From: Azospirillum fermentarium
GTDB lineage: Bacteria; Pseudomonadota; Alphaproteobacteria; Azospirillales; Azospirillaceae
Direction: 5' to 3'
DNA: 64,000 bases
Assembly (NCBI RefSeq): GCF_025961205.1
Contig: NZ_JAOQNH010000003.1
Location: 640,501-704,500 of the forward strand
The notes beneath the pieces are model-generated. The model was not told where the DNA came from. It did no database searches and saw only the letters and a list, made by a program, of their open reading frames with translations. Each line of letters starts with the position of its first letter. Position 1 is the stretch's first letter. This document shows positions 886 to 29,315 of this stretch, piece after piece. A program made the position numbers and the translations under genes.

Positions 886-918
886 CATTCTCTCCATCGC
901 ATCGAAAAGCCGTGCCGG

Positions 919-3355: not shown

Positions 3356-4296
3356 TCCGCGGCCTCCCTCTGCGCATCGGTCCGGCGCAGGAAATGGGCG
3401 TACATCTCGTCCAGGCTGGGCTGGACGATCTCGATGTCGGTGATGGCGGTGTCGTTGGCGACGAGGCGGCGGACGGCGGCCACCTTGTCGCCGTCGGCGC
3501 AGGCCAGTTCGACCATGCCGCCGGCCAGCCGGGTCAGGGCCGTCCCCTCGCCCATCCGCCGGGCCAGGGTCTCGGCATCGCCATCGGCCAGGGTCAGGCG
3601 GATGCGCACCGGCAGCCGGGCCAGCCCGCGCAAGGTGGACAGCGAGCCGTCGGCCACCTTGCTGCCCCGGCTCATCACCACCACGCGGTCGGCCTGCCCC
3701 TCCAGCTCGGTCAGCGCGTGGCTGCACAGCAGGACGGTGGTGCCGGCATCGCGCAAGGTGGCGACGATCTCGTAGAAGCTCTGGCGCAGCGCCGGGTCCA
3801 GGCCGGTGGTGGGTTCGTCCAGGAACAGAATTTTCGGATCGCCCAGCAGCGCCTGGGCCAGCGCCAGCCGCTGCCGCATCCCCTTGGAATAGGTGCCCAC
3901 CCGCCGCGCCACCGCCGGGGCTTCCAGCCCGACGCGCTCGAACAGGGCCGCGTTGCCGCGGCACGGCACGCCCTTCAGCCGGGCGTAGAAATCCAGCGTC
4001 TCCCGCCCGGTCATGCTGGGGTGGAAGGCGACGTTTTCGGGCAGGAACCCCACCTGCCGGCGGATATGGGGGGCGGCGGCCCCCGCCGGATCGCCGCCCA
4101 GCACGCTCAGGTGTCCGGCGTCCGGCGTGGTCAGGCCCAGCATCAGCTTGATGAGCGAGCTTTTGCCCGCACCGTTGTGCCCGACCATCGCCACGCATTC
4201 GCCCGGCATCAGCGCCAGATCCACCGCCCGCACGGCGGTATGGCTGCCATAGCGCTTGGTGACGCCCACGGCCCGGATGGTTGGTTCCTGTGTCAT
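3352..4296 (-). CDS. nosF: NosF, ABC ATPase for N2O reductase copper-site maturation
   Basis: A 314-residue ABC ATPase: Walker A GHNGAGKSS near residue 40, signature YSKGMRQRLALAQAL near 135, Walker B ILFLDEPTTGLDP near 155 and the H-loop LLCSHAL. The C-terminal third is the regulatory domain usual for NosF. It powers the NosDFY complex in the cytoplasm. The ATG at 4296 was chosen because it forms an ATGA overlap with the nosD stop; the upstream open frame lies inside nosD. Its own stop overlaps the nosY start. Confidence 0.96.
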   Translation of the reverse strand: MTQEPTIRAVGVTKRYGSHTAVRAVDLALMPGECVAMVGHNGAGKSSLIKLMLGLTTPDAGHLSVLGGDPAGAAAPHIRRQVGFLPENVAFHPSMTGRETLDFYARLKGVPCRGNAALFERVGLEAPAVARRVGTYSKGMRQRLALAQALLGDPKILFLDEPTTGLDPALRQSFYEIVATLRDAGTTVLLCSHALTELEGQADRVVVMSRGSKVADGSLSTLRGLARLPVRIRLTLADGDAETLARRMGEGTALTRLAGGMVELACADGDKVAAVRRLVANDTAITDIEIVQPSLDEMYAHFLRRTDAQREAAE

Positions 4297-10114: not shown

Positions 10115-10128
10115 TTGACGAAGGTCAA
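10115..10128. promoter_or_regulatory. Fnr/Dnr box shared by nosR and the ferritin-like gene
   Basis: TTGACGAAGGTCAA is a perfect inverted repeat of TTGAC around four bases. Placed at -41.5 for nosR (minus strand) it predicts a start near 10080. Read for the plus strand it predicts a start near 10163, and TACTAT at 10151-10156 sits where the -10 element should be. One site may therefore drive both divergent genes. Confidence 0.8.
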
Positions 10129-14449: not shown

Positions 14450-15169
14450 TCATTTCAGAACGCAAAGCTCCTTCTCGTCCCCGTCGATCAGGATGTCGGG
14501 ATGGCAGAACATCCGCAGCTTTCCGGCATCCTCCACCACGATCTGCCGCCCCCGGACATGGACCCCGTGCTCGCTCAGCGCGGCGAAGGCACGCGACAGG
14601 CTTTCCGGCGACATGCCCAAGCGCCCGGCCAGCACCTGTTTGCTGACCCGCAGGTCGAATTCGCCGTTTTCCTGGGTCTCGGGCACCTGATGCAGCAGCC
14701 AGGCCCCCAGGCGCTGGGTCGATGTGCGCAGCTTCAGATCCTTGACCTGCCGCACCATGCGGCGGAAATGCCCGGCCAGCGATGCCATCATCGTCAGGGC
14801 CAGCTTGGGCTGCTGCATGATCTGCTGGCGCAGCCGGTGAGCCGACAGCATCAGGATCTGGGCCGGTTCCAGCACCTTGGACGACATGAGATAAGGCGTG
14901 TCGGTCAGCACCGCCGCCAGAATGAAGCTGTCCACCGGGGTCACCAGCTCGATGACCGTTTCGCGGCCGTCGGCGGAACTGGCGTACAACTCGACCGTCC
15001 CGTCGATCAGGATGTGAAGGAAATCGGGCCTGTCCCCCTGTTCGAAAAGCTGCGTTTCCTTGGGAAAGCGCTGCAGCAACGCGCCGCGGGTCAGTTCGGC
15101 AAGCTGGTCGTCCTCAAGGCCGTTGAAAAAAGGCAGGCTGCGCACAAGGTTCTGATCCTTCACACGCAT
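14450..15169 (-). CDS. Crp/Fnr family regulator of the Dnr type
   Basis: A 239-residue regulator: cyclic-nucleotide-binding-like beta-barrel (about 15-120), dimerisation helix (QQIMQQPKLALTMMASL), and winged helix with recognition helix SPESLSRAFAAL near residue 190. Only two Cys are present, both near the C-terminus, so it lacks the N-terminal [4Fe-4S] cysteines of Fnr. It resembles NO-sensing Dnr in overall pattern. The conserved E-x-x-S-R of the recognition helix fits a TTGAC/TTGAT target. GGAGG six bases upstream supports the ATG at 15169 over a GTG one codon earlier. It has its own box at 15270-15283, so it may autoregulate and control nos, nor, nar and ubi in this window. NO sensing is inferred. 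Confidence 0.88.
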   Translation of the reverse strand: MRVKDQNLVRSLPFFNGLEDDQLAELTRGALLQRFPKETQLFEQGDRPDFLHILIDGTVELYASSADGRETVIELVTPVDSFILAAVLTDTPYLMSSKVLEPAQILMLSAHRLRQQIMQQPKLALTMMASLAGHFRRMVRQVKDLKLRTSTQRLGAWLLHQVPETQENGEFDLRVSKQVLAGRLGMSPESLSRAFAALSEHGVHVRGRQIVVEDAGKLRMFCHPDILIDGDEKELCVLK

Positions 15170-15269
15170 CACTCACCTCCGCTTCCAACCGCGCCCGCCG
15201 TCAGGAAACCCGCCGCCCCGGCCGGATTCCCATGCACCGTTTTTTTTAACAGAGTCCACCTCCCGATTC

Positions 15270-15283
15270 TTGATGAATATCAA
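15270..15283. promoter_or_regulatory. Fnr box for the Crp/Fnr regulator gene
   Basis: TTGATGAATATCAA is a perfect Fnr consensus palindrome centred about 107 bases before the regulator ATG. At -41.5 it places the minus-strand start near 15235, with an AT-rich GTTAAA-like -10 just upstream of that. The unit would respond to anaerobiosis or autoregulate. Confidence 0.85.
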
Positions 15284-15381
15284 GGATCCAATTGACTTAA
15301 GTAAAAAATTATCATGACTAATGTTATTAAAGAAATACTATGAAATCAACAGTGCGGCATATTGTAACTGCATTCTCAAGC
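15284..15381. other. AT-rich spacer between two divergent Fnr promoters
   Basis: Ninety-eight bases of markedly AT-rich sequence between the two boxes, unlike the surrounding GC-rich DNA. It contains runs such as GTAAAAAATTATC and GTTATTAAAG. No convincing gene or hairpin is visible. Its position suits UP-element or IHF/nucleoid-protein binding upstream of both promoters. Confidence 0.5.
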
Positions 15382-15395
15382 TTGACCTTAATCAA
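15382..15395. promoter_or_regulatory. Fnr box for the narK1K2GHJI operon
   Basis: TTGACCTTAATCAA, centred about 99 bases before the narK1 ATG. At -41.5 it predicts a start near 15430, and CATTAA at 15415-15420 is a plausible -10. This is class II promoter geometry for anaerobic induction of nitrate respiration. Confidence 0.85.
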
Positions 15396-15487
15396 GTGTA
15401 TGACCTTGAACAGACATTAATGTCCCCACAAAGAATGCGGTGGCTGGCCGGTGGGCACAGTCACACGGCCAGTCTGAGGGGACTGTG

Positions 15488-18279: not shown

Positions 18280-21200
18280 ATGAGTCATTTCCTCGACCGC
18301 CTGATGTTCTTCAAGAAGAATGTCGGCACCTTCTCCAACGGCCACGGCGTGGTGACCCGCGAGGACCGAAGCTGGGAAGAGGCGTACCGCAACCGCTGGC
18401 GCCACGACAAGATCGTGCGCTCCACCCACGGGGTGAACTGCACCGGCTCGTGCTCGTGGAAGATCTACGTCAAGGGCGGCATCGTCACCTGGGAAACCCA
18501 GCAGACCGACTATCCCCGCACCCGCCCCGACCTGCCCAACCATGAGCCGCGCGGCTGCCAGCGCGGGGCCAGCTATTCCTGGTATCTGTATTCCGCCAAC
18601 CGGGTGAAATACCCGCTGATCCGCTCGCGGTTGATGAAGCTGTGGCGGGCGGCGCGGCGGACGCAGGATCCGGTGAACGCCTGGGCCTCCATCGTCGAAG
18701 ATCCGCAGCAGGCCCAATCCTACAAGTCGATCCGCGGCCAGGGCGGCTTCGTCCGCGCCACCTGGGACGAGGTGACGGAGATCATCGCCGCCGCCAACGC
18801 CTACACCGCCAAGACCTACGGCCCCGACCGTGTGGCCGGCTTCTCGCCGATCCCGGCCATGTCCATGGTGTCGTACGCCGCCGGAGCGCGCTATCTGTCG
18901 CTGATCGGCGGCACCTGTCTGTCGTTCTACGACTGGTATTGCGACCTGCCGCCGGCCAGCCCGCAGACCTGGGGCGAGCAGACCGACGTGCCGGAATCGG
19001 CGGACTGGTACAACTCCACCTTCCTGATGGTCTGGGGTTCCAACGTGCCGCAGACCCGCACGCCGGACGCCCATTTCTACACCGAGGTCCGCTACCGCGG
19101 CACCAAGAGCGTGGTGGTCACGCCCGACTATTCCGAAGCGTCCAAGTTCGCCGACCTGTGGCTGAACCCCAAGCAGGGCACCGACGCCGCCCTGGCCATG
19201 GCCATGGGCCATGTGGTGCTGAAGGAATTCCATCTGTCGGGCAAATCGGCATACTTCCGCGACTATTGCCGCCAGTACACCGACATGCCGTTCCTGGTGA
19301 AGCTGAAGCGGCAGGGCAACACTCTGGTGCCCGACCGTTTCGTGCGCACCTCCGACTTCGCCGACAAGCTGGGCCAGGACAACAACCCCGACTGGAAGAC
19401 GGTCGCCATCGACGAGACGACCGGCAAGGTGGTCGTGCCCGCCGGCTCCGTCGGCTTCCGCTGGGGTGAACAGGGCAAATGGAACCTGGAGGAAAAGGAT
19501 CACGCCGGCAACGGCACCGATCTGGCCCTGTCGCTGATCGACATCCGCGATGATGTGGCCGGCGTCGCCTTCCCCTATTTCGGCAACCGCAAGCACGACC
19601 ACTTCACCGGCACCGACCATGACTCGGTGCTGGTGCGCAACGTGCCGGTCAAGCGGCTGGACGCCGCCGAGGGCGAGATGCTGGTGGCCAGCGTCTACGA
19701 CCTGTTCATGGCCAACTACGGCATCGACCGCGGCCTGGGCGGCGGCAACGTCGCCGCGTCCTATGACGACGACCAGCCCTATACGCCCGCGTGGCAGGAA
19801 CGGATCACCGGCGTCAAGCGGGATCTGGTCATCACCACCGCCCGCGAGTTCGCCGACAACGCCGACAAGACCCGCGGCAAGTCCATGGTGATTTTGGGGG
19901 CCGCCCTCAATCACTGGTACCACATGGATATGAACTACCGCGGCATCATCAATCTGCTGGTGATGTGCGGCTGCATCGGCCAGTCGGGCGGCGGCTGGTC
20001 CCATTACGTGGGCCAGGAAAAGCTGCGCCCGCAATCGGGGTGGACGCCGCTGGCCTTCGGGCTGGACTGGGTGCGCCCGTCGCGGCAGATGAACGGCACC
20101 TCCTATTTCTACGCCCACACCGACCAGTGGCGGTACGAGAAGCTGTCGGTGGCCGAGATCCTGTCGCCGCTGGCCGACGCCAACGAATACGGCGGCAGCC
20201 TGATCGACTACAACGTGCGGGCCGAGCGCATGGGCTGGCTGCCCTCCTCGCCGCAGATGGAGACCAACCCGCTCCAGATCACCCGCGATGCCGCCAAGGC
20301 CGGCGCCGAGGTGAAGGACTACATGGTCAAGGGCCTGAAGGACGGCGGCCTGCGCCTGTCGTGCGAAGACCCGGACAACCCCAGGAACTACCCGCGCAAC
20401 CTGTTCGTCTGGCGTTCCAACCTGCTGGGGTCGTCGGGCAAGGGGCACGAGTATTTCCTCAAGCACCTGCTGGGCACCCACAACGGCGTGATGGGCAAGG
20501 ATCTGGGCCAGGAGGGCGAGGCCAAACCCACCGAAGTGGTGTGGCGCGACGACGCCCCGGCCGGAAAGCTGGACCTGCTGGTCACCATCGACTTCCGCAT
20601 GTCCACCACCTGCGTCTATTCCGACATCGTTCTGCCGACGGCCACGTGGTACGAGAAGAACGACCTCAACACCTCCGACATGCACCCCTTCATCCACCCG
20701 CTGACCGCCGCCGTCGATCCGGCGTGGGAAGCGCGGTCGGACTGGGAGATCTTCAAGGGCATCGCCAAGACGTTCTCCGACGTCGTGCCCGGCCATCTGG
20801 GCGTGGAAAAGGATGTGGTGCTGGTGCCGCTGATGCACGACACGCCGGGCGAACTGGGCCAGGCGCTGGACGTGAAGGACTGGAAGAAGGGCGAGACCGA
20901 TCCCATCCCCGGCAAGACCATGCCCGGCATGGTGGTGGTCGAACGCGACTATCCCAACACCTACAAGCGGTTCACCTCGCTCGGACCACTGATGTCCACG
21001 CTCGGCAACGGCGGCAAGGGCATGGGGTGGAAGACCGATGACGAAATCGAATTCCTGAAGGAGTTGAACGGGGTCGTCACCGAGGAAGGTCCGAGCCAGG
21101 GCCTGCCCCGCATCGACACCGACATCCACGCCGCGGAAGTCATCCTGACCCTGGCGCCGGAAACCAACGGCCACGTGGCGGTCAAGGCGTGGGAATCGCT

Positions 21201-22017
21201 GGGCAAGGCCACCGGCCTCGACCACACCCATCTGGCCATCCCGCGCGAGGACGACAAGATCCGCTTCCGCGACGTGGTGGCCCAGCCGCGCAAGATCATC
21301 TCCTCCCCCATCTGGTCGGGGCTGGAAAGCGAGAAGGTCAGCTACAACGCCTGCTACACCAACGTCCATGAACTGATCCCGTGGCGCACCCTGACCGGCC
21401 GCCAGCAGCTTTATCAGGATCACCCGTGGATGCGGGCGTTCGGCGAAGGCTTCTGCGTCTACCGCCCGCCGGTCGATCTGAAGACCGTCAAGCCGGTCAT
21501 CAACGTCAAGGACGACGGCCAGCCGCAACTGGTGCTGAACTGGATCACCCCGCACCAGAAATGGGGCATCCATTCCACCTACACCGACAACCTGCTGATG
21601 CTCACCCTGTCGCGCGGCGGCCCCATCGTGTGGATCGCCGAGGTGGATGCCAAGAAGGCCGGCATCGCCGACAACGACTGGATCGAGGTCTACAACGTCA
21701 ACGGCGCCATCGCCTGCCGCGCCGTGGTGTCCCAGCGCGTGCCGTCGGGCATGTGCATGATGTACCACGCCCAGGAAAAGATCGTGAACACCCCCGGTTC
21801 CAAGGTCACCGGGCACCGCGGCGGCATCCACAACTCGGTCACCCGCACGGTGACCAAGCCGACGCACATGATCGGCGGCTATGCCCAGCAATCCTACGGC
21901 TTCAACTATTACGGCACCGTCGGGGCCAACCGCGACGAATTCGTGATCGTCCGCAAGATGACCCAGGTGGACTGGATGGACGGATCCCCGGTCCAGCCCA
22001 TCCAGGCAGCGGAATAA
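18280..22017 (+). CDS. narG: NarG, respiratory nitrate reductase alpha (molybdenum) subunit
   Basis: A 1245-residue catalytic subunit reducing nitrate to nitrite on the cytoplasmic face of the membrane. The N-terminal FS0 cluster motif has the His ligand typical of NarG (H50, C54, C58 in THGVNCTGSC). The Mo-coordinating Asp is D222 in SFYDWYCDLP, at the same number as in the E. coli enzyme. The surrounding WGEQTDVPESADWYN and GSNVPQTRTPDAHF stretches are family hallmarks. Length is normal and the frame unbroken. It follows narK2 by about 40 bases and precedes narH by 34, with a good ribosome site before each. Confidence 0.98.
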   Translation: MSHFLDRLMFFKKNVGTFSNGHGVVTREDRSWEEAYRNRWRHDKIVRSTHGVNCTGSCSWKIYVKGGIVTWETQQTDYPRTRPDLPNHEPRGCQRGASYSWYLYSANRVKYPLIRSRLMKLWRAARRTQDPVNAWASIVEDPQQAQSYKSIRGQGGFVRATWDEVTEIIAAANAYTAKTYGPDRVAGFSPIPAMSMVSYAAGARYLSLIGGTCLSFYDWYCDLPPASPQTWGEQTDVPESADWYNSTFLMVWGSNVPQTRTPDAHFYTEVRYRGTKSVVVTPDYSEASKFADLWLNPKQGTDAALAMAMGHVVLKEFHLSGKSAYFRDYCRQYTDMPFLVKLKRQGNTLVPDRFVRTSDFADKLGQDNNPDWKTVAIDETTGKVVVPAGSVGFRWGEQGKWNLEEKDHAGNGTDLALSLIDIRDDVAGVAFPYFGNRKHDHFTGTDHDSVLVRNVPVKRLDAAEGEMLVASVYDLFMANYGIDRGLGGGNVAASYDDDQPYTPAWQERITGVKRDLVITTAREFADNADKTRGKSMVILGAALNHWYHMDMNYRGIINLLVMCGCIGQSGGGWSHYVGQEKLRPQSGWTPLAFGLDWVRPSRQMNGTSYFYAHTDQWRYEKLSVAEILSPLADANEYGGSLIDYNVRAERMGWLPSSPQMETNPLQITRDAAKAGAEVKDYMVKGLKDGGLRLSCEDPDNPRNYPRNLFVWRSNLLGSSGKGHEYFLKHLLGTHNGVMGKDLGQEGEAKPTEVVWRDDAPAGKLDLLVTIDFRMSTTCVYSDIVLPTATWYEKNDLNTSDMHPFIHPLTAAVDPAWEARSDWEIFKGIAKTFSDVVPGHLGVEKDVVLVPLMHDTPGELGQALDVKDWKKGETDPIPGKTMPGMVVVERDYPNTYKRFTSLGPLMSTLGNGGKGMGWKTDDEIEFLKELNGVVTEEGPSQGLPRIDTDIHAAEVILTLAPETNGHVAVKAWESLGKATGLDHTHLAIPREDDKIRFRDVVAQPRKIISSPIWSGLESEKVSYNACYTNVHELIPWRTLTGRQQLYQDHPWMRAFGEGFCVYRPPVDLKTVKPVINVKDDGQPQLVLNWITPHQKWGIHSTYTDNLLMLTLSRGGPIVWIAEVDAKKAGIADNDWIEVYNVNGAIACRAVVSQRVPSGMCMMYHAQEKIVNTPGSKVTGHRGGIHNSVTRTVTKPTHMIGGYAQQSYGFNYYGTVGANRDEFVIVRKMTQVDWMDGSPVQPIQAAE

Positions 22018-22051
22018 CAGCGGCCACCGCGAGACCAAGGAGCACATTCTC

Positions 22052-23569
22052 ATGAAGATCCGCGCGCAAATCGCGATGGTCCTGAACCTGGACAAATGCA
22101 TCGGCTGCCACACCTGCTCGGTGACCTGCAAGAACGTCTGGACCTCACGCGAGGGCGTCGAATACGCCTGGTTCAACAACGTCGAAACCAAGCCCGGCGT
22201 CGGCTATCCCAAGGAATGGGAGAATCAGGACAAATGGAAGGGCGGCTGGGTCCGTAACGCCGACGGTAAGCTGGAGCCGCGCATCGGCGGCAAGTGGCGG
22301 GTGCTGGCGAACATCTTCGCCAACCCCGACCTGCCGGAAATCGACGACTATTACGAACCCTTCACCTTCGACTACCAGAACCTCCAGACCGCACCGGAAG
22401 GCAAGACCATGCCCACGGCGCGCCCCGTCTCGCTGATCACCGGCGAGAAAATGGACAAGATCAACTGGGGGCCGAACTGGGAAGAAATCCTGGGCGGCGA
22501 GTTCGAAAAACGGTCCAAGGACAAGAATTTCGACGGCATCCAGAAGGAAATCTACGGCCAGTTCGAAAACACCTTCATGATGTACCTGCCGCGCCTGTGC
22601 GAGCATTGCCTCAATCCGGCGTGCGTGGCCTCCTGCCCCTCCGGCTCCATCTACAAGCGCGAGGAGGACGGCATCGTCCTGGTCGATCAGGACAAGTGCC
22701 GCGGCTGGCGCATGTGCGTGTCCGGCTGCCCCTATAAGAAGATCTATTACAACTGGCAGTCGGGCAAGGCGGAGAAGTGCACCTTCTGCTTCCCGCGCAT
22801 CGAGGTGGGCCAGCCCACCGTGTGCTCGGAAACCTGCGTCGGGCGCATCCGCTATCTGGGGGTGGTGCTGTACGACGCCGACCGCATCGAGACGGCGGCC
22901 AGCGTCACCGACGAGCGCAACCTTTACAAATCGCAGCTCGACATCTTCCTGGATCCCAAGGATCCCGGCGTCATCGAGCAGGCCCGCAAGGACGGCGTGC
23001 CGGACGCGTGGCTGGAGGCCGCCCGCCAGTCGCCCATCTGGAAGATGGCCATGGAATGGAAGGTGGCGCTGCCGCTCCACCCCGAATACCGCACGCTGCC
23101 GATGGTCTGGTACATCCCGCCGCTGTCACCGATCCAGGGTGCCGCCGAACAGGGGCACATCGGCTTCAAGGACGGGCTGCCCGACCTCGACTCCCTGCGC
23201 ATCCCGGTCAAGTACCTCGCCAACCTGCTGACGGCGGGCGACGAGCAGCCGGTGCGCGACGCGCTGACCCGCATGTTCGCCATGCGCGTCTACCAGCGCG
23301 GCCGCCACGTGGACGGCACCTTGAACAAGGACGTGCTGCGCGCCGCCAATCTCACCGCCCATCAGGTGGAGGAAATGTACAGCCTGATGGCCATCGCCAA
23401 TTACGAGGACCGCTTCGTCATCCCGACGACGCACCGCGAATACGCCGAAAACACCTTCGACCTGCGCGGCACCTGCGGCTTCAGCTTCGGCAACGGCTGC
23501 GCCGACGGCGTGACGCCGGCCGGGCTGTTCGGGGCGAAGAAGACCAAGGCACCGGAGGGCGTGAAATGA
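22052..23569 (+). CDS. narH: NarH, respiratory nitrate reductase beta (iron-sulfur) subunit
   Basis: A 505-residue electron-transfer subunit with four Cys clusters: CIGCHTCSVTCKNVW, CEHCLNPACVASCPSG, CRGWRMCVSGCPYKK and CTFCFPRIEVGQPTVCSETC. The Trp replacing one Cys in CRGWRMC is the normal [3Fe-4S] variation of NarH. It links NarI haem to NarG molybdenum. The stop is overlapped by the narJ start (ATGA). The last codons lie in the first copy of a 24-bp tandem duplication that spans the junction. Confidence 0.98.
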   Translation: MKIRAQIAMVLNLDKCIGCHTCSVTCKNVWTSREGVEYAWFNNVETKPGVGYPKEWENQDKWKGGWVRNADGKLEPRIGGKWRVLANIFANPDLPEIDDYYEPFTFDYQNLQTAPEGKTMPTARPVSLITGEKMDKINWGPNWEEILGGEFEKRSKDKNFDGIQKEIYGQFENTFMMYLPRLCEHCLNPACVASCPSGSIYKREEDGIVLVDQDKCRGWRMCVSGCPYKKIYYNWQSGKAEKCTFCFPRIEVGQPTVCSETCVGRIRYLGVVLYDADRIETAASVTDERNLYKSQLDIFLDPKDPGVIEQARKDGVPDAWLEAARQSPIWKMAMEWKVALPLHPEYRTLPMVWYIPPLSPIQGAAEQGHIGFKDGLPDLDSLRIPVKYLANLLTAGDEQPVRDALTRMFAMRVYQRGRHVDGTLNKDVLRAANLTAHQVEEMYSLMAIANYEDRFVIPTTHREYAENTFDLRGTCGFSFGNGCADGVTPAGLFGAKKTKAPEGVK

Positions 23570-23595
23570 ACGGCACCGGAGAGCGTGACATGAAA
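23548..23595 (+). repeat. 24-bp tandem duplication carrying ribosome site and start codon at the narH-narJ junction
   Basis: Bases 23548-23571 and 23572-23595 are consecutive direct repeats differing at 3 of 24 positions. Each copy holds a Shine-Dalgarno element (GGAGGG or GGAGAG) and an ATG in the same frame. The duplication therefore gives narJ two in-frame initiation sites eight codons apart. Confidence 0.9.
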
Positions 23596-24267
23596 CGCTG
23601 CGACACCGTCAAGGCGTTGGGGATGCTGCTGACCTATCCCAGCGAGGATCTGGTGGCCGCCCGCACCGACATCCAGCAGGTCATCACCGGGGAGGGGCTG
23701 CTCAGCCGCCCCGTCCTGGCCCAGGTGGGGGCGCTGGTCCGCGCCCTGGGCGACACCGACCTGTACGACCTGCAGGAACGCTACATCCAGCTTTTCGACC
23801 GCAGCCGCACCCTGTCGCTGCATCTCTACGAGCATGTCCACGGCGAATCCCGCGAGCGCGGCCCCGCCATGGTCAATCTCCGCGAGATCTACCGCAGCTA
23901 CGGCTTCGAGATCGACAGCCGCGAGCTGCCCGACTTCCTGCCCATGCTGTGCGAGTTCCTGTCGCAGGTGCCGGAAGCCACGGCGCGGGAGATCCTGGGC
24001 GAGGCGCGGGTGGTGCTGGACGCCCTGTGCGTCCGGCTGGAGGAGCGCGCCAGCCCGTATGCCGGCGTGCTGGCCGCCCTGGCCGAGTTGACCGGCGCCC
24101 CCGCCGACGCCACCGCGGTGGCCGCCCACATCAAGGCCGAGGGCGAGGACGACGACGCCGGCGACCTGGACGCCATGGACCGCATCTGGGAGGAAGCGTC
24201 GGTCGCCTTCGGCGCCGGCGACGCCATGGCGGGGGCCTGCCCCCTGGTTCAATCCCCGCAGGCCTGA
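23566..24267 (+). CDS. narJ: NarJ, assembly chaperone of nitrate reductase
   Basis: A 233-residue acidic helical protein of the TorD/DmsD/NarJ chaperone family. It binds apo-NarG for molybdenum cofactor insertion and membrane attachment. Family marks are KALGMLLTYPSED, LYDLQERYIQLFDRSR and SLHLYEHVHGESRERG. The ATG at 23566 overlaps the narH stop. A second in-frame ATG at 23590 has an equally good ribosome site because both lie in a tandem duplication; starting there gives 225 residues and an N-terminus (MKRCDTVKALG) more like other NarJ proteins. The C-terminal 40 residues are very acidic. Confidence 0.95.
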   Translation: MNGTGERDMKRCDTVKALGMLLTYPSEDLVAARTDIQQVITGEGLLSRPVLAQVGALVRALGDTDLYDLQERYIQLFDRSRTLSLHLYEHVHGESRERGPAMVNLREIYRSYGFEIDSRELPDFLPMLCEFLSQVPEATAREILGEARVVLDALCVRLEERASPYAGVLAALAELTGAPADATAVAAHIKAEGEDDDAGDLDAMDRIWEEASVAFGAGDAMAGACPLVQSPQA

Positions 24268-24294
24268 CGCCGCGGCACACGGAAGACGTTCCCC

Positions 24295-24984
24295 ATGTCC
24301 TATCTTCACACCCTTCTGTTCGGTTACGCCCCCTATGTGGCGCTGACCGTGTTCCTGGCGGGCAGCCTGATCCGTTTCGACCGCGAGCAGTACACATGGC
24401 GGTCCGGCTCCAGCCAGATGCTGCGCAAGCAGTCGCTGCAGCTCGGGTCCAACCTGTTCCATGTCGGCATCCTGCTGCTGTTCATGGGCCATTTCTTCGG
24501 CCTGCTGACCCCGCCGGAGGTCTATCACGCCTTCGGCCTGTCGGTGGGGGCCAAGCAGTGGCTGGCGATCATCGCCGGCTCGGTGTTCGGCACCGTCTGC
24601 TTCATCGGGCTGACGCTGCTGCTGCACCGCCGCCTGACCGACGCGCGCATCCGCAAGACCTCAAGCCCGATGGATCTGGTGATCCTGGGCGTGCTGTGGG
24701 TGCAGCTCGTGCTGGGGCTGGCCACCATCCCGGCATCCATCGCCCATTCCGACGGCGGCACCATGCTGGCCCTGGCCGACTGGGCGCAGCGGATCGTCAC
24801 CTTCCGCGCCGGTGCGGCGGAGGCCGTGGCCGACGTGGGCCTGGTCTACAAGCTGCATCTGGTGCTGGGCATGGTGATGGTCCTGCTCTTCCCCTTCTCG
24901 CGGCTGGTGCACATCTGGTCCGCCCCGGTCTGGTATCTGGGCCGGCGCTATCAGGTGGTGCGCACCCGCTTCCGCCACGGCTGA
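24295..24984 (+). CDS. narI: NarI, respiratory nitrate reductase gamma (cytochrome b) subunit
   Basis: A 229-residue membrane protein with five predicted helices that oxidises ubiquinol and passes electrons to NarH through two b haems. Candidate haem ligands are the His residues in HVGILLLFMGH (helix 2) and in HLVLGMVMVLLFPFSRLVH (helix 5), arranged as in the family. The N-terminal LFGYAPYVALTVFLAG and the YTWRSGSSQ loop are typical. It lies 27 bases after narJ and closes the core nar operon. Confidence 0.97.
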   Translation: MSYLHTLLFGYAPYVALTVFLAGSLIRFDREQYTWRSGSSQMLRKQSLQLGSNLFHVGILLLFMGHFFGLLTPPEVYHAFGLSVGAKQWLAIIAGSVFGTVCFIGLTLLLHRRLTDARIRKTSSPMDLVILGVLWVQLVLGLATIPASIAHSDGGTMLALADWAQRIVTFRAGAAEAVADVGLVYKLHLVLGMVMVLLFPFSRLVHIWSAPVWYLGRRYQVVRTRFRHG

Positions 24985-25021
24985 GCCGTACTACCCAACG
25001 TCGGTCATTCAGGAGCGTGTC

Positions 25022-25795
25022 ATGACGATCAGCGTGAACGGTGCGGCCATCAGCAGCGGCGCCATCGACCGGGAGGTCCAGTATCACCCGGCCCCCACCC
25101 TGGAGGAGGCCCGGTTCGCGGCGGCCCGTGCGCTGGTCGTCCGGCACCTGCTGCTGGCCGAAGCCGGACGGGCGGAGGCGGCAGACAACGCCGCGGATGA
25201 CGCGGAGGAGGAGGCCGCCATCCAGGCCGTCCTAAGCCGGGCCATCACCCTGCCCGACCCGGACGAGGACACCTGCCGCCGCTATTACGCCAACAACCCG
25301 GACCGTTTCCGCAGCCCGGACATCTTCGAGGCGTGCCACATCCTCTTCCCCGCCCGCCCCGGCGACGAGGCCGCCCGGACCGCCGCCCGGCAAAAGGCGC
25401 TGGACACCATCCGCATCCTGACCGCCGAGCCGGAACGCTTCGCCGAACTGGCCCTCACCCTGTCCGCCTGCCCGTCCGGGGCGGTGGGCGGCAGCCTGGG
25501 GCAGGTCAGCCGGGGGCAGACCACGCCGGAACTGGAGACGTTCTTCTACAACCTGATGCCGGGCACCCTGTGCCCGGTGCCGGTGCCGACCCCCTACGGC
25601 TATCACGTGCTGCGGCTCGACCGCCGCGCGTTCGGACGCCCCCTGCCCTTCGAGGTGGTCCACGCCACCATCGCCGCCCACTTGCGGCAGGCGTCGTGGC
25701 AGCGGGCGGTCCACCAGTACGTTTCCCTGCTGGTGGGACAGGCCCGGATCGACGGCATCGACCTCGGCGGTGCCACGTCGCCGCTGGTGCAGTGA
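25022..25795 (+). CDS. Parvulin-type peptidyl-prolyl isomerase linked to the nar operon
   Basis: A 257-residue protein. The N-terminal 80 residues are a helical SurA/NifM-like segment (ALVVRHLLLAEAGR). Residues 95-205 are a PpiC rotamase domain: EACHILFPAR, then LALTLSACPSGAVGGSLGQV, and GYHVLRLDRR. No signal peptide is seen, so it is probably cytoplasmic. Parvulins of this layout recur after narGHJI in proteobacteria, suggesting help in folding Nar subunits, in analogy to NifM for nitrogenase. The ATG has AGGAG eight bases upstream. It sits 37 bases after narI and is probably cotranscribed. Confidence 0.85.
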   Translation: MTISVNGAAISSGAIDREVQYHPAPTLEEARFAAARALVVRHLLLAEAGRAEAADNAADDAEEEAAIQAVLSRAITLPDPDEDTCRRYYANNPDRFRSPDIFEACHILFPARPGDEAARTAARQKALDTIRILTAEPERFAELALTLSACPSGAVGGSLGQVSRGQTTPELETFFYNLMPGTLCPVPVPTPYGYHVLRLDRRAFGRPLPFEVVHATIAAHLRQASWQRAVHQYVSLLVGQARIDGIDLGGATSPLVQ

Positions 25796-25826
25796 CGGCG
25801 CGCCGGGAAAGGAAGGAAACTCGGCC

Positions 25827-26657
25827 ATGGCCACCCGTGACGGCGATCCCCTGCTCCACCTGCTGGAAGGCTTCGAGGAATTCCGGCTGTCCAGCCTGCG
25901 GAGCAACCCCGGCCTGTTCCGCCGGCTGGCGCAGGAGGGGCAGTCGCCCAAGGTGCTGGTCATCGGCTGCTCCGATTCCCGCGTCGATCCGGCGATCCTG
26001 ACCCACTGCCAGCCGGGCGACCTGTTCGTCGTGCGCAACGTGGCGGCCATCGTGCCGCCCTATGAGCGGGACGGGCGTCACCACGGCACCAGTTCGGCGC
26101 TGGAATTCGGCGTCCGCTCGTTGCGGGTCGAGCACGTCATCGTGCTGGGCCACGCCGCGTGCGGCGGCGTGCGGGCGCTGGCGGAAGGAACCGGCGCCGG
26201 CCCCGGCGCGGGTTTCGAATTCCTCGCCGATTGGGTGGGCATCGCCGCCGAGGCGCGGGCGGCGGTGGAAACCGCCCTGCACGCCGCCCCGGACGGGCGG
26301 CGGCGGCGGGTTCTGGAACAGGCCACCGTGCTGCTGTCCCTGCGCAACCTGCTGGGCTATCCCTGGGTGCGGGAACGGGTGGAGTCGGGGCTGCTGACGC
26401 TGCACGGCTGGTATTTCGACATCCACGACGGCGAACTGATGGCCTTCGACGCCGAAGCCCTGCGGTTCCTGGCGGTGCGGGGGCGGCTGGAAGGCATGCC
26501 CCTGGGCCTGCGCCCCTGCGTCCGGGGGTGCGGGTGCGGCACCGGGGTGGATCTGCACGCCTTCACCAGCGCCGAAGCGCTGCGCGAGGTGCCGTGGGCG
26601 AAGCCTTCCACCACAGCAAAAAAGAATCCATCCGCGGGAAAAATTGCTGAAGCTTGA
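25827..26657 (+). CDS. Beta-class carbonic anhydrase
   Basis: A 276-residue enzyme hydrating CO2 to bicarbonate. Zinc ligands and the catalytic dyad are clear: C48-x-D50-x-R52 in GCSDSRVD, and H109-x2-C112 in GHAACGGV. A region after the core has three clustered Cys (C231, C235 and C237 in CVRGCGCG), which are not part of the known active site. GGAAGGAAA precedes the ATG at 25827. It follows the PPIase by 31 bases, so it probably belongs to the nar transcript. Its stop codon TGA lies inside the Fnr half-site TTGAC of the next promoter. The family role is firm; why it travels with nitrate respiration is unknown, with CO2/bicarbonate or pH balance as possibilities. Confidence 0.93.
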   Translation: MATRDGDPLLHLLEGFEEFRLSSLRSNPGLFRRLAQEGQSPKVLVIGCSDSRVDPAILTHCQPGDLFVVRNVAAIVPPYERDGRHHGTSSALEFGVRSLRVEHVIVLGHAACGGVRALAEGTGAGPGAGFEFLADWVGIAAEARAAVETALHAAPDGRRRRVLEQATVLLSLRNLLGYPWVRERVESGLLTLHGWYFDIHDGELMAFDAEALRFLAVRGRLEGMPLGLRPCVRGCGCGTGVDLHAFTSAEALREVPWAKPSTTAKKNPSAGKIAEA

Positions 26658-26695
26658 CCACAATCAAGTGACCGCAGGAAATAAGACCATATAAT
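26654..26695 (+). promoter_or_regulatory. Class II Fnr promoter for the leader RNA and ubiTUV
   Basis: The Fnr box TTGACCACAATCAA (26654-26667) is followed by a perfect -10 hexamer TATAAT at 26690-26695. With the box at -41.5 the start falls at about 26702, seven bases after the -10, which is ideal class II spacing. It is the clearest promoter in the window. Confidence 0.88.
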
Positions 26696-26701
26696 CATGG
26701 A

Positions 26702-26800
26702 CGAAAGACGCCCTCTCTCACGTCTTTCTCTCCACGAGGATAGCAGACTTACGTCACGAAAACTCCCTTCCGGCGCCACGCCGGAAGGGCTTTCTTTCTG
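26702..26800 (+). ncRNA. Candidate Fnr-dependent small RNA or attenuator leader
   Basis: From the predicted start near 26702, about 99 bases run to a strong terminator. The 5' end folds into a perfect 8-bp hairpin (GAAAGACG 26703-26710 with CGTCTTTC 26721-26728) with a CU-rich loop CCCTCTCTCA. TCTCTCC (26727-26733) follows, overlapping the stem by two bases; it is complementary to GGAGAGA-type ribosome sites. A central unpaired stretch and a terminator hairpin complete the usual layout of a regulatory sRNA. No start codon with a ribosome site is seen inside. It may be a free sRNA, a ubiT attenuator, or both. Confidence 0.5.
26765..26799 (+). terminator. Strong intrinsic terminator before ubiT
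   Basis: CCCTTCCGGCG (26765-26775) and CGCCGGAAGGG (26779-26789) pair perfectly over 11 bp with a three-base loop. CTTTCTTTCT follows as a T-rich tail. It lies downstream of the Fnr promoter and 44 bases upstream of the ubiT ATG, so it would end a short leader transcript. Confidence 0.75.
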
Positions 26801-26842
26801 ACTGCCACCTTGTGGCGATTTTCATTCCGAAAGGCCCCGCTC

Positions 26843-27430
26843 ATGACCTCCACCTTCGTCCCTCCTCCGCGGGCGGCGGAAACGCTGATGGCGCGCGCGG
26901 CCCTGACGCTGGGACGCGGCATCATCAGCCGCCCGTTCGGCGGCCCGCCGGTCCAGGCCGTGCTCGACCTGGGCATGGCGCTGCTCCGCCGCCGCCACCC
27001 CGGCCTGTGCGGGCGGCTGGCGGATCTGGACGGTGCCGAGGTGCTGATCGACCCCACCGACATGCCGGCGTGCCTGACGCTGCGGCTGGGACCGGCCCCA
27101 CGGCTGCGGCTGGTGCGGCGCGACGGCGCCCCGCCGTGCACCGCCGCCGTCCGCGGCCGCTTCGCCGTGCTGCTGGACCTGCTGGAGGGCCGCATCGACG
27201 GCGACGCCCTGTTCTTTTCCCGTGACCTGACCGTGGAGGGCGACACCGAAACCGTGGTGGCCCTGCGCAACGCCGTCGATGGCGAGGACATGAACCTGTC
27301 CGCCGCCCTGGCCGCGCTGCCGGGACCGCTCGGGCGGCTGGCGCCGCCGGCCCACGCCGTGCTGACGCGGGTGCTGACCGTGGCCGGTTCCCGCTTTTCC
27401 CACCGGACCGAAAGACCCTCCCAGCCATGA
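26843..27430 (+). CDS. ubiT: UbiT, SCP2-domain lipid carrier for anaerobic ubiquinone synthesis
   Basis: A 195-residue protein with an SCP2 sterol-carrier fold in residues 55-150 (VLIDPTDMPACLTLRLGPAP; GRIDGDALFFSRDLTVEGDTE). This is the YhbT/UbiT family, which binds ubiquinone precursors for the oxygen-independent hydroxylation pathway. Adjacent ubiU and ubiV make the assignment strong. The ATG at 26843 is preceded by only a weak GAAAGG element. The stop overlaps the ubiU start (ATGA). Expression is expected from the Fnr promoter upstream, with an intrinsic terminator in between. Confidence 0.92.
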   Translation: MTSTFVPPPRAAETLMARAALTLGRGIISRPFGGPPVQAVLDLGMALLRRRHPGLCGRLADLDGAEVLIDPTDMPACLTLRLGPAPRLRLVRRDGAPPCTAAVRGRFAVLLDLLEGRIDGDALFFSRDLTVEGDTETVVALRNAVDGEDMNLSAALAALPGPLGRLAPPAHAVLTRVLTVAGSRFSHRTERPSQP

Positions 27431-28413
27431 GCCGTTTCGAGCTGATCTGCCCCGCCGGCACCCCGGCGGCGCTGCGCGCGGCGGTGGATGCCGGGGCGGA
27501 CGCCGTCTATTGCGGTTTCCGCGACGACACCAACGCCCGCAACTTCCCCGGCCTCAACTTCTCCCGGCCCGAGTTGAAGGAGGGCATCGCCTATGCCCAC
27601 GCCCGTGGCCGGCAGGTGTTCGTCGCTATCAACACCTATCCCGCCGCCGGCAACCCCCATCCCTGGCACGCGGCCGTGGATGACGCCGCCCGGCTGGGCG
27701 CCGACGCGGTGATCCTGGCCGACCTGGGGCTGCTGGATTACGCCGCCCGCCGCCACCCGGCCCTGCGGCTGCACCTGTCGGTGCAGGCGTCCGCCGCCAA
27801 CGCCGACGCCATCCGCATGGTTCAGGCGGAATTCGGCGTGCGGCGGGTGGTGCTGCCGCGGGTGCTGACCGTCGCCGACATCGCCCGGCTGAACCGGGAC
27901 ATCGCCATCGAGACCGAGGTGTTCGTGTTCGGCGGCATGTGCCCGATGGCCGAGGGGCGGTGCTCGCTGTCGTCCTATGCCACCGGGCGCTCGCCCAACC
28001 GCAACGGCGTGTGCTCCCCCGCCAGCCATGTGCGCTACGAGGAGCGGCGCGAGGGGCTGGTCTCGCGGTTGGGGGATTTCACCATCAACGTCTTCCCCCA
28101 CGGTGAGCCCGCCGGCTATCCCACCTTGTGCAAGGGCCGGTTCTCCGCGGGCGGCGCGCCGTCGTACCTGTTCGAGGAACCGACCAGCCTCAACGCCATC
28201 GGCCTGCTGCCCGAGCTGCAGGCCGCCGGGGTCACGGCGCTGAAGATCGAGGGCCGCCAGCGCGGCAAGGCCTACATCGCCCAGGTGGTCGCCACCTACC
28301 GCCAGGCGCTCGATGCGTTCGCCGCCGGCCAGCCCCTGCCCGCCGCAGCGCTCGCCGGTCTGACCGAGGGCGGGCGGGACACCACCGGGGCCTATGGGAG
28401 AGCATGGCGATGA
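27427..28413 (+). CDS. ubiU: UbiU, U32-family Fe-S subunit of the O2-independent ubiquinone hydroxylase
   Basis: A 328-residue member of peptidase family U32 (YhbU). It opens with ELICPAGTPAALRAAVDAGA and has the four Cys expected for its [4Fe-4S] cluster: C172, C179, C196 and C235 (MCPMAEGRC, NGVCSPASH, TLCKGRF). With UbiV it hydroxylates the ubiquinone ring without oxygen, using prephenate as oxygen donor in the E. coli system. Starts by ATGA overlap with ubiT and ends overlapping ubiV, so the three are coupled. It would supply ubiquinone to NarI when oxygen is absent. Confidence 0.95.
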   Translation: MSRFELICPAGTPAALRAAVDAGADAVYCGFRDDTNARNFPGLNFSRPELKEGIAYAHARGRQVFVAINTYPAAGNPHPWHAAVDDAARLGADAVILADLGLLDYAARRHPALRLHLSVQASAANADAIRMVQAEFGVRRVVLPRVLTVADIARLNRDIAIETEVFVFGGMCPMAEGRCSLSSYATGRSPNRNGVCSPASHVRYEERREGLVSRLGDFTINVFPHGEPAGYPTLCKGRFSAGGAPSYLFEEPTSLNAIGLLPELQAAGVTALKIEGRQRGKAYIAQVVATYRQALDAFAAGQPLPAAALAGLTEGGRDTTGAYGRAWR

Positions 28414-29315
28414 CGAAAGCCGAACTGTCGCTGGGTCCGGTGCTGTTCAACTGGGCGCCGGAGGTCTGGCGCGACTTCTACGTCCGCATCGCCGACGAAG
28501 CCCCCGTCGAAACGGTGTTCCTGGGCGAGGTGGTGTGCGCCAAGCGGGCGCCGTTCATCGCCGCCCACCTGCCCGCGGTGCTGGAGCGGCTGGCCGCCGC
28601 CGGCAAGCGGGTGGTGCTGTCCACGCCCATCCTCGTCACCACCGAACGGGAACGGCAGGCGGTGCGCGATCTGGCCGCCACCGACGCAGCCCTGGTCGAG
28701 GCCAACGACCTGGGAAGCCTGCCGCTGCTGGCCGGGCGGCCGCACGCCGTCGGCCCCTTCGTCAACGTCTACAACGAAGGCACCCTGGCGTGGCTGGCCC
28801 GGCGCGGCGCCGTCATGGTCAGCCTGCCGGGCGAACTGACCCGCCCGGCGGTCGCGGCCCTGGCCAAGGCCGCCGCCCCGCTGGGGGTGGAACTGGAGGT
28901 TCAGGTGTCCGGGCGGCTGCCGCTGGCGATCTCCGCCCGCTGCTACCACGCCCGCGCCCACGGGCTGCACAAGGACGGCTGCCAGTTCGTCTGCGCCAAC
29001 GATCCCGACGGGCTGGACGTCACCACCCTGGACGGCACGCCCTTCCTGGCGGTCAACGGCACGCAGACCCTGTCTCACACCCACACGGCGCTGGTGGCGG
29101 AACTGGACGATCTGCAGACCCTGGGCATCCGCCGCTTCCGGCTGTCGCCGCAGTCGGGCGACATGGTGGCGGTGGCCCGGCTGTTCCGCGGCCTGCTGGA
29201 CGGCCACATCGCCACCGCGGAGGCGCTGGCGCGGCTCAAGAGCCTGCTGGGCGCGGAGGCCGCCCTGTCCAACGGCTTCTACCACGACCGCGCGGGCGTG
29301 GCGTTCGCGGGATAG
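28410..29315 (+). CDS. ubiV: UbiV, partner Fe-S subunit of the O2-independent ubiquinone hydroxylase
   Basis: A 301-residue U32-family protein (YhbV) with the four UbiV cluster cysteines: C43 in GEVVCAKR, C178 in SARCYHARAHG, C191 and C195 in DGCQFVC. ELSLGPVLFNWAPE opens the TIM-barrel as in the family. GGGAG lies nine bases before the ATG at 28410, which overlaps the ubiU stop; an ATG at 28404 is also in frame but too near the ribosome site. It forms a heterodimer with UbiU. The gene converges on the norF unit, with seven bases between stops. Confidence 0.94.
   Translation: MTKAELSLGPVLFNWAPEVWRDFYVRIADEAPVETVFLGEVVCAKRAPFIAAHLPAVLERLAAAGKRVVLSTPILVTTERERQAVRDLAATDAALVEANDLGSLPLLAGRPHAVGPFVNVYNEGTLAWLARRGAVMVSLPGELTRPAVAALAKAAAPLGVELEVQVSGRLPLAISARCYHARAHGLHKDGCQFVCANDPDGLDVTTLDGTPFLAVNGTQTLSHTHTALVAELDDLQTLGIRRFRLSPQSGDMVAVARLFRGLLDGHIATAEALARLKSLLGAEAALSNGFYHDRAGVAFAG

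Follow-up and report, generated by a model that had tools for sequence, protein, structure and literature searches.

The window analysed here, a stretch of 64,000 nucleotides of Azospirillum fermentarium DNA, comes from an Azospirillum-type genome of 5.89 Mb in four contigs. Its plus strand carries a run of nar genes that ends at 26657 and comprises two NarK-like transporters, narG, narI, a NifM/PpiC-like gene and, last, a carbonic-anhydrase-like gene (25827-26657; PRK10437, E = 2.4e-24, under the curated cut-off, with a start codon of our choosing). narG and narI score over their family cut-offs and the two NarK-like transporters below theirs; narH was named through plasmid matches, and narJ is assumed to be in the run as well. 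On the same strand follow ubiT (26843-27430; NF047962), ubiU (27427-28413; NF047963) and ubiV (28437-29315; NF047965, its start again our choice), all three over their cut-offs. Relatives of ubiU were also looked for in viral contigs, and none were found there. The subject of this analysis is the ubiT leader, which measures 141 nt from a predicted transcription start at 26702 to the ubiT start codon.

Because narG occurs in just 2 of the 45 genus genomes, its own included (the other copy is 64% identical), the nar block (18280-26657) looks to have been either acquired or widely lost. The genome encodes an Fnr-like protein in which the N-terminal cysteines and an ETVSR helix are visible and whose score falls under the Fnr family cut-off. 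An FtrB-like regulator of the Crp/Fnr family lies divergent from the nar run (14450-15172, minus strand), and other Crp/Fnr proteins such as this one could use the boxes described below instead of the Fnr-like protein.

An Fnr-type box, TTGACCACAATCAA, occupies 26654-26667, where it overlaps the stop codon of the carbonic-anhydrase-like gene. The hexamer TATAAT at 26690-26695 is the sole exact copy on either strand of the 64-kb window and belongs to the sole sigma-70-like site found between 24 and 30 kb. Arithmetic from box and hexamer places the predicted start at 26702 and the centre of the box (26660.5) at -41.5, the class II arrangement of a TTGAT/C-N4-A/GTCAA box near -41.5 combined with a -10 hexamer. 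An earlier note on this DNA had proposed a class II Fnr promoter ahead of ubiT, and the position of the box, the uniqueness of the TATAAT and the spacing were all confirmed; this may also be the strongest anaerobic promoter, as the note labelled it. Where chance predicts 0.03 copies of the strict pattern TTGAYN4RTCAA, the window has five: one at 10115, two ahead of narK-like genes (15270 and 15382), the one at 26654, and one that precedes a cytochrome-c-like gene (30439). The resemblance between the narK-proximal box and that of ubiT extends into the surrounding bases (AAGC-box-GTG), 15378-15398 and 26650-26670 agreeing at 19 of 21 positions. Fnr control of ubiT has precedents, since ubiTp2 and ubiUVp of E. 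coli are activated by Fnr (accessible text of PMC10470549) and an Fnr box is reported at -40.5 for ubiT of Sphingopyxis granuli (accessible text of PMC7713065). These promoters resemble the one described here in having an Fnr site close upstream of the ubiT start site, and they differ in that the accessible text of neither source mentions a terminator in the leader (PMC10470549, PMC7713065).

Within the ubiT leader, an intrinsic terminator stem-loop of 11 bp (9 of them G-C) with a loop of 3 nt spans 26765-26789 on the plus strand and is followed at 26790-26799 by the tail CTTTCTTTCT. Perfect stems of at least 10 bp with loops of 3-8 nt occur at four sites in the window, and in a comparison of plus-strand tails only this one is followed by a T-rich run. 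The 11-bp terminator with a T-rich tail claimed in the earlier note is thus present as to stem and tail, but its T run is broken by a C. Under the general weighting used for terminator tails, 26790-26799 scores about 2.2, where eight T would score 5.1, which suggests that the terminator is leaky, and the tail may even be too weak to halt polymerase at all. Since no sigma-70-like site was found 3' of the terminator in the scan of 24-30 kb, ubiT must be read through from upstream; the operon has a single promoter nearby, and the terminator sits within the leader which that promoter begins, as it does in RNAs of the UpsM kind. Beyond the tail, CCTTGTGG (26808-26815) either forms part of a local hairpin (26803-26817) or pairs with CCACGAGG (26732-26739), an 8-pair helix around the terminator that, by folding, is possible in the read-through RNA only and for which we see no evidence of a role. 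AAAGG at 26830-26834, 8 nt before the ATG, is the likely ribosome site of ubiT. A 34-codon frame, read by eye from an ATG at 26697 and spanning the entire hairpin-to-terminator element, was set aside because it begins before the predicted transcript.

The 5' end of the predicted transcript is itself structured. A hairpin of 8 bp at 26703-26728 (arms 26703-26710 and 26721-26728) begins at +2 and encloses the CU-rich loop CCCTCTCTCA, just as the earlier note had described it. The TCTCTCC stretch that the same note singled out is there as well (26727-26733), but not as a separate feature, its first two bases lying inside the hairpin stem. Of 5000 shuffles of the 63-nt leader ahead of the terminator (26702-26764), 59 produced a perfect 8-bp hairpin at any position and 4 produced one that starts in the first 4 nt, the latter position having been picked after the hairpin was seen; the hairpin is modestly improbable. 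The whole element folds strongly (z = -4.56), mostly because of the terminator, as the 63 nt ahead of it give z = -1.26 and 22 of 200 shuffles fold equally well. Among the five strict boxes of the window, only that of ubiT has a hairpin at +1. In the transcript predicted from the 15382 box, 15444-15472 holds a hairpin of 7 bp around a loop of 15 nt.

To place these features among relatives, we used UbiU searches, which yielded 20 named loci from several alphaproteobacterial and two gammaproteobacterial records. Of the 45 genus genomes 34 had a match, and of the 82 order genomes (the same 82 that serve as the family set) 50 did. The 57 UbiU loci taken included 55 with a ubiT match and 2 without one (L051, L052). 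With 16 loci added from other genera of the family, the set came to 71 ubiT loci, the window (L054) included, and removal of six duplicates left 65 non-redundant loci, near-identical strains being retained. Of these 65, 53 have a loose box (TTGN8CAA) no farther than 230 nt from ubiT and 36 have a strict one, the window counted in both. With a box ahead of ubiT in the majority of relatives, the comparison indicates that the Fnr-type promoter of the window is the promoter of ubiT and not that of an orphan sRNA. From the end of the box to the start of ubiT the distance is 57-103 nt in the genus, most commonly 63, and 175 nt in the window, distances that rest on our choice of start codons. A terminator-like structure between box and ubiT was found in the window and in none of the 70 other loci (six duplicates among them), in a scan limited to loops of 3-8 nt that leaves uncounted longer-looped ones, of which L041 and L042 show examples upstream of their boxes; L066 has a terminator-like structure upstream of its box. 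On this evidence the terminator looks like a private addition, and because it is seen in one genome among 71 ubiT loci, selection on it is not demonstrable.

The 5' hairpin has a different distribution. When the start was projected at 35 nt past the box end in every strict-box locus, 21 distinct leaders resulted, nearly all of them Azospirillum-type (L046 is a Thalassospira record), and 9 of the 21, the window among them, have a perfect hairpin of at least 5 bp with a loop of 3-10 nt beginning between +1 and +6. Shuffles expect 1.0 such leaders and reach at most 4, with 0 of 200 reaching 9, and eleven other registers between -29 and +42 give 0 to 2 of 21, in a register test that was conceived after the pattern had been seen. 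Kinship reduces the number of independent cases to about six, since three of the nine hairpin leaders (L056, L058, L069) are close kin, as are two more (L039, L049). The stems differ in sequence, GAAAGACG in the window and among the others CGGCGGGC, GGCGGG, TGGCGG, GGGAGG, AGCGC and CGCCA, and the loop sequence of the window is not common to the other hairpin-bearing leaders. The hairpin is absent from 12 of the 21 distinct strict-box leaders; by length, it is present in 9 of the 11 leaders of at least 43 nt and in 0 of the 10 shorter ones, a division that depends on the start codons chosen. Distinct leaders with a loose box only have it in 1 case of 17 (L050, a Hyphomicrobiales record). Eight more alphaproteobacterial loci, chosen from 170 plasmid records with a ubiU match (Chelatococcus, three Paracoccus, Sinorhizobium, Leisingera, Ensifer and Ruegeria), all proved to be without it, although 4 of them have a strict box. 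In a MAFFT alignment of seven leaders the stem of the window is misplaced, and the consensus of that alignment was kept out of the evidence. Because the +1 position recurs while other registers do not, the hairpin seems to be part of the ubiT leader. It may be an element that protects the 5' end in the longer ubiT leaders of the Azospirillum-type group; its recurrence in ubiT leaders is new here, and it is a simple, testable feature of these longer leaders.

Searches of 82 family and 385 class genomes turned up no homologue of the element, its own genome being counted in each of the sets searched (45 genus, 82 family and 385 class genomes). In the family set blastn returned the element's own locus only (E = 0.02). 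A covariance model (R1) made of the one sequence entered twice was run on the family and class genomes, the class search admitting E up to 5e-4 under strict filters: the family matches examined as loci proved to be terminators or GC palindromes, and the single foreign match in the class a terminator after unrelated sequence. Among the weak matches examined, 25 loci from the genus blastn (for boxes only) and 30 from the R1 searches, just two had a strict box nearby; L120 is the opposite strand of the element itself, and in L111 the box forms part of the stem at the start of the match and is not at promoter distance. A repeat or mobile element was rejected as well, the own-genome matches being pieces of 15-29 nt, of which seven were read, one of them the element's own opposite strand, with no sign of a repeat family. 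Plasmid DNA matches, in the best 10 of 89 records, all begin at query base 403 or later, within ubiT, and none covers the leader. Rfam holds no family that reaches its gathering score on the element, FnrS included (one chance-level match, E = 9.8), and gave no match in nine relative loci. An RNA of a nar-linked 3'UTR was also considered and dropped, the other nar locus (L139) being without a strict plus-strand box in 13 kb and without a terminator after ppiC.

We give a probability of about one half to the reading that this is an UpsM-like terminated ubiT leader, in which a leaky terminator would yield an RNA of about 95-99 nt alongside a read-through mRNA. On loss of oxygen, an Fnr-type regulator at -41.5 would start transcription at about 26702, and the hairpin at the start of the RNA would probably shield its 5' end. 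Most polymerases would then halt at 26790-26799 and release the short RNA, and the remaining ones would continue beyond the interrupted T tail into ubiTUV. The roughly 99-nt RNA that the earlier note derived from the Fnr promoter survives to this extent: a transcript from that promoter meets the terminator before ubiT, which makes a short product of about 95-99 nt likely. The same terminator would also end the upstream nar/carbonic-anhydrase run. It counts against this reading that ubiT could be fed from the nar promoters as well. Such a valve would most likely be passive, fixing the ratio of short RNA to message as does UpsM, an RNA of about 206 nt, before mraZ. UpsM of Rhodobacter sphaeroides is likewise alphaproteobacterial and shares the layout: a single promoter serves the operon, its 5' leader contains an intrinsic terminator, and a short RNA is made alongside operon read-through at about 1 in 100 (accessible text of PMC5089854). 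It differs in being abundant and experimentally shown, with a leader of 268 nt, whereas the ubiT leader is shorter and under Fnr-type control. For UpsM, moreover, the accessible text of PMC5089854 reports that the leader is long and its terminator strong across the Rhodobacteraceae, whereas the terminator of the ubiT leader is unconserved, conservation being something reported for UpsM and not required of every terminated RNA derived from a 5' leader.

A plainer account, which we regard as somewhat unlikely, is that the terminator does no more than close the nar/carbonic-anhydrase transcript, with such leakiness that no discrete short RNA accumulates, so that the Fnr promoter simply reads into ubiTUV through a long leader. 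The interrupted tail and its low score fit this account, as does the adjoining nar run with Fnr boxes at 15270 and 15382; yet a stem of 11 bp with 9 G-C pairs is unusual in the window, and the promoter precedes the terminator, so its transcripts would meet it anyway. Termination that responds to a protein, a ligand or a pairing RNA is a further alternative and one we hold to be improbable. The order promoter, hairpin, terminator, gene would suit it, and so would the helix between 26732-26739 and 26808-26815 that forms only in the read-through RNA, but the attenuator offered in the earlier note finds, as a regulated one, neither an antiterminator fold nor a leader-peptide start codon, there being no ATG, GTG or TTG from 26702 to the terminator with which a ribosome could be coupled; no Rfam family reaches threshold, and the terminator is unseen in relatives.

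It is unlikely, in our estimate, that the element is a trans-acting, Fnr-induced sRNA with an FnrS- or PaiI-like function that pairs mRNAs through its CU-rich loop or linker. A strong promoter of its own, a 5' hairpin, a linker and a terminator would equip it for this role, Hfq is encoded in the genome, and Fnr- and nitrate-linked sRNAs are known elsewhere (accessible text of PMC8139620); against it stand the missing homologue in the 82 family and 385 class genomes, a loop not common to the other hairpin leaders, and the GGAGAGA count and tatE ranking given below. FnrS of E. coli and PaiI of Pseudomonas aeruginosa are short RNAs that are induced in anaerobiosis and tied to Fnr or Anr. NarS of Salmonella, from the narK 3'UTR, likewise sits where a nitrate-respiration transcript under Fnr influence ends; RNase E releases it from narK mRNA, and its target is nirC (accessible text of PMC8139620). 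The ubiT leader differs from NarS in having its own promoter, a different gene and no known target, and from FnrS and PaiI, known sRNAs with targets or a phenotype, in lacking an Rfam match at gathering score. The more specific anti-Shine-Dalgarno sRNA of the earlier note found no support. Such sRNAs, CCUCCUCCC or NfeR1-like, present an unpaired CU motif that matches the ribosome site; 26702-26764 contains no CCTCC, CTCCT or TCCTC. GGAGAGA is rarer than chance (2 in the window against 5.04 expected, one of them the complement of TCTCTCC itself). The exact GGAGAGA reported before tatE is real (889-895, minus strand, a tatA/E gene) but abuts the first ATG, and when the first 40 nt of the RNA were paired with 40-nt stretches on both strands of 1-30000, its own locus included, the tatE ribosome site ranked 289 of 2996 by duplex energy. 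A lineage-specific variant, in which a terminator gained 3' of an older +1 hairpin would have made a trans-acting sRNA of the ubiT leader while read-through metered ubiquinone synthesis, seems to us distinctly unlikely; under it, each Fnr-driven start would give a stable RNA acting in nitrate-respiring cells.

Anaerobic ubiquinone synthesis feeds nitrate respiration, and its control past the Fnr promoter seems to have received little study. Should the terminator function, an Fnr-induced operon would be throttled at once within its own leader, by a device that perhaps arose in a single lineage. We saw no account of a ubiT leader with a terminator in the literature searched, whose scope leaves out most subscription papers; no title on the ubiT leader stands among the matches listed for ubiT attenuation or sRNA, and the accessible text of a survey of Azospirillum brasilense sRNAs (PMC7685610) has no occurrence of Fnr or anaerob-.

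Two further observations concern the ubiT loci of relatives. Several short-leader Azospirillum-type loci (L075-L078, L080, L081, L083 and L087-L089) have an inverted repeat of 8-10 bp, for example CATGGGCGGC N22 GCCGCCCATG, that spans the -10 region and the start codon of ubiT, its two arms flanking the ribosome site; because the first arm would be mostly untranscribed given the predicted start, this repeat would be a DNA palindrome. In Ensifer canadensis (L149), a tatA/E gene lies just 3' of ubiTUV, at 3657-3842.
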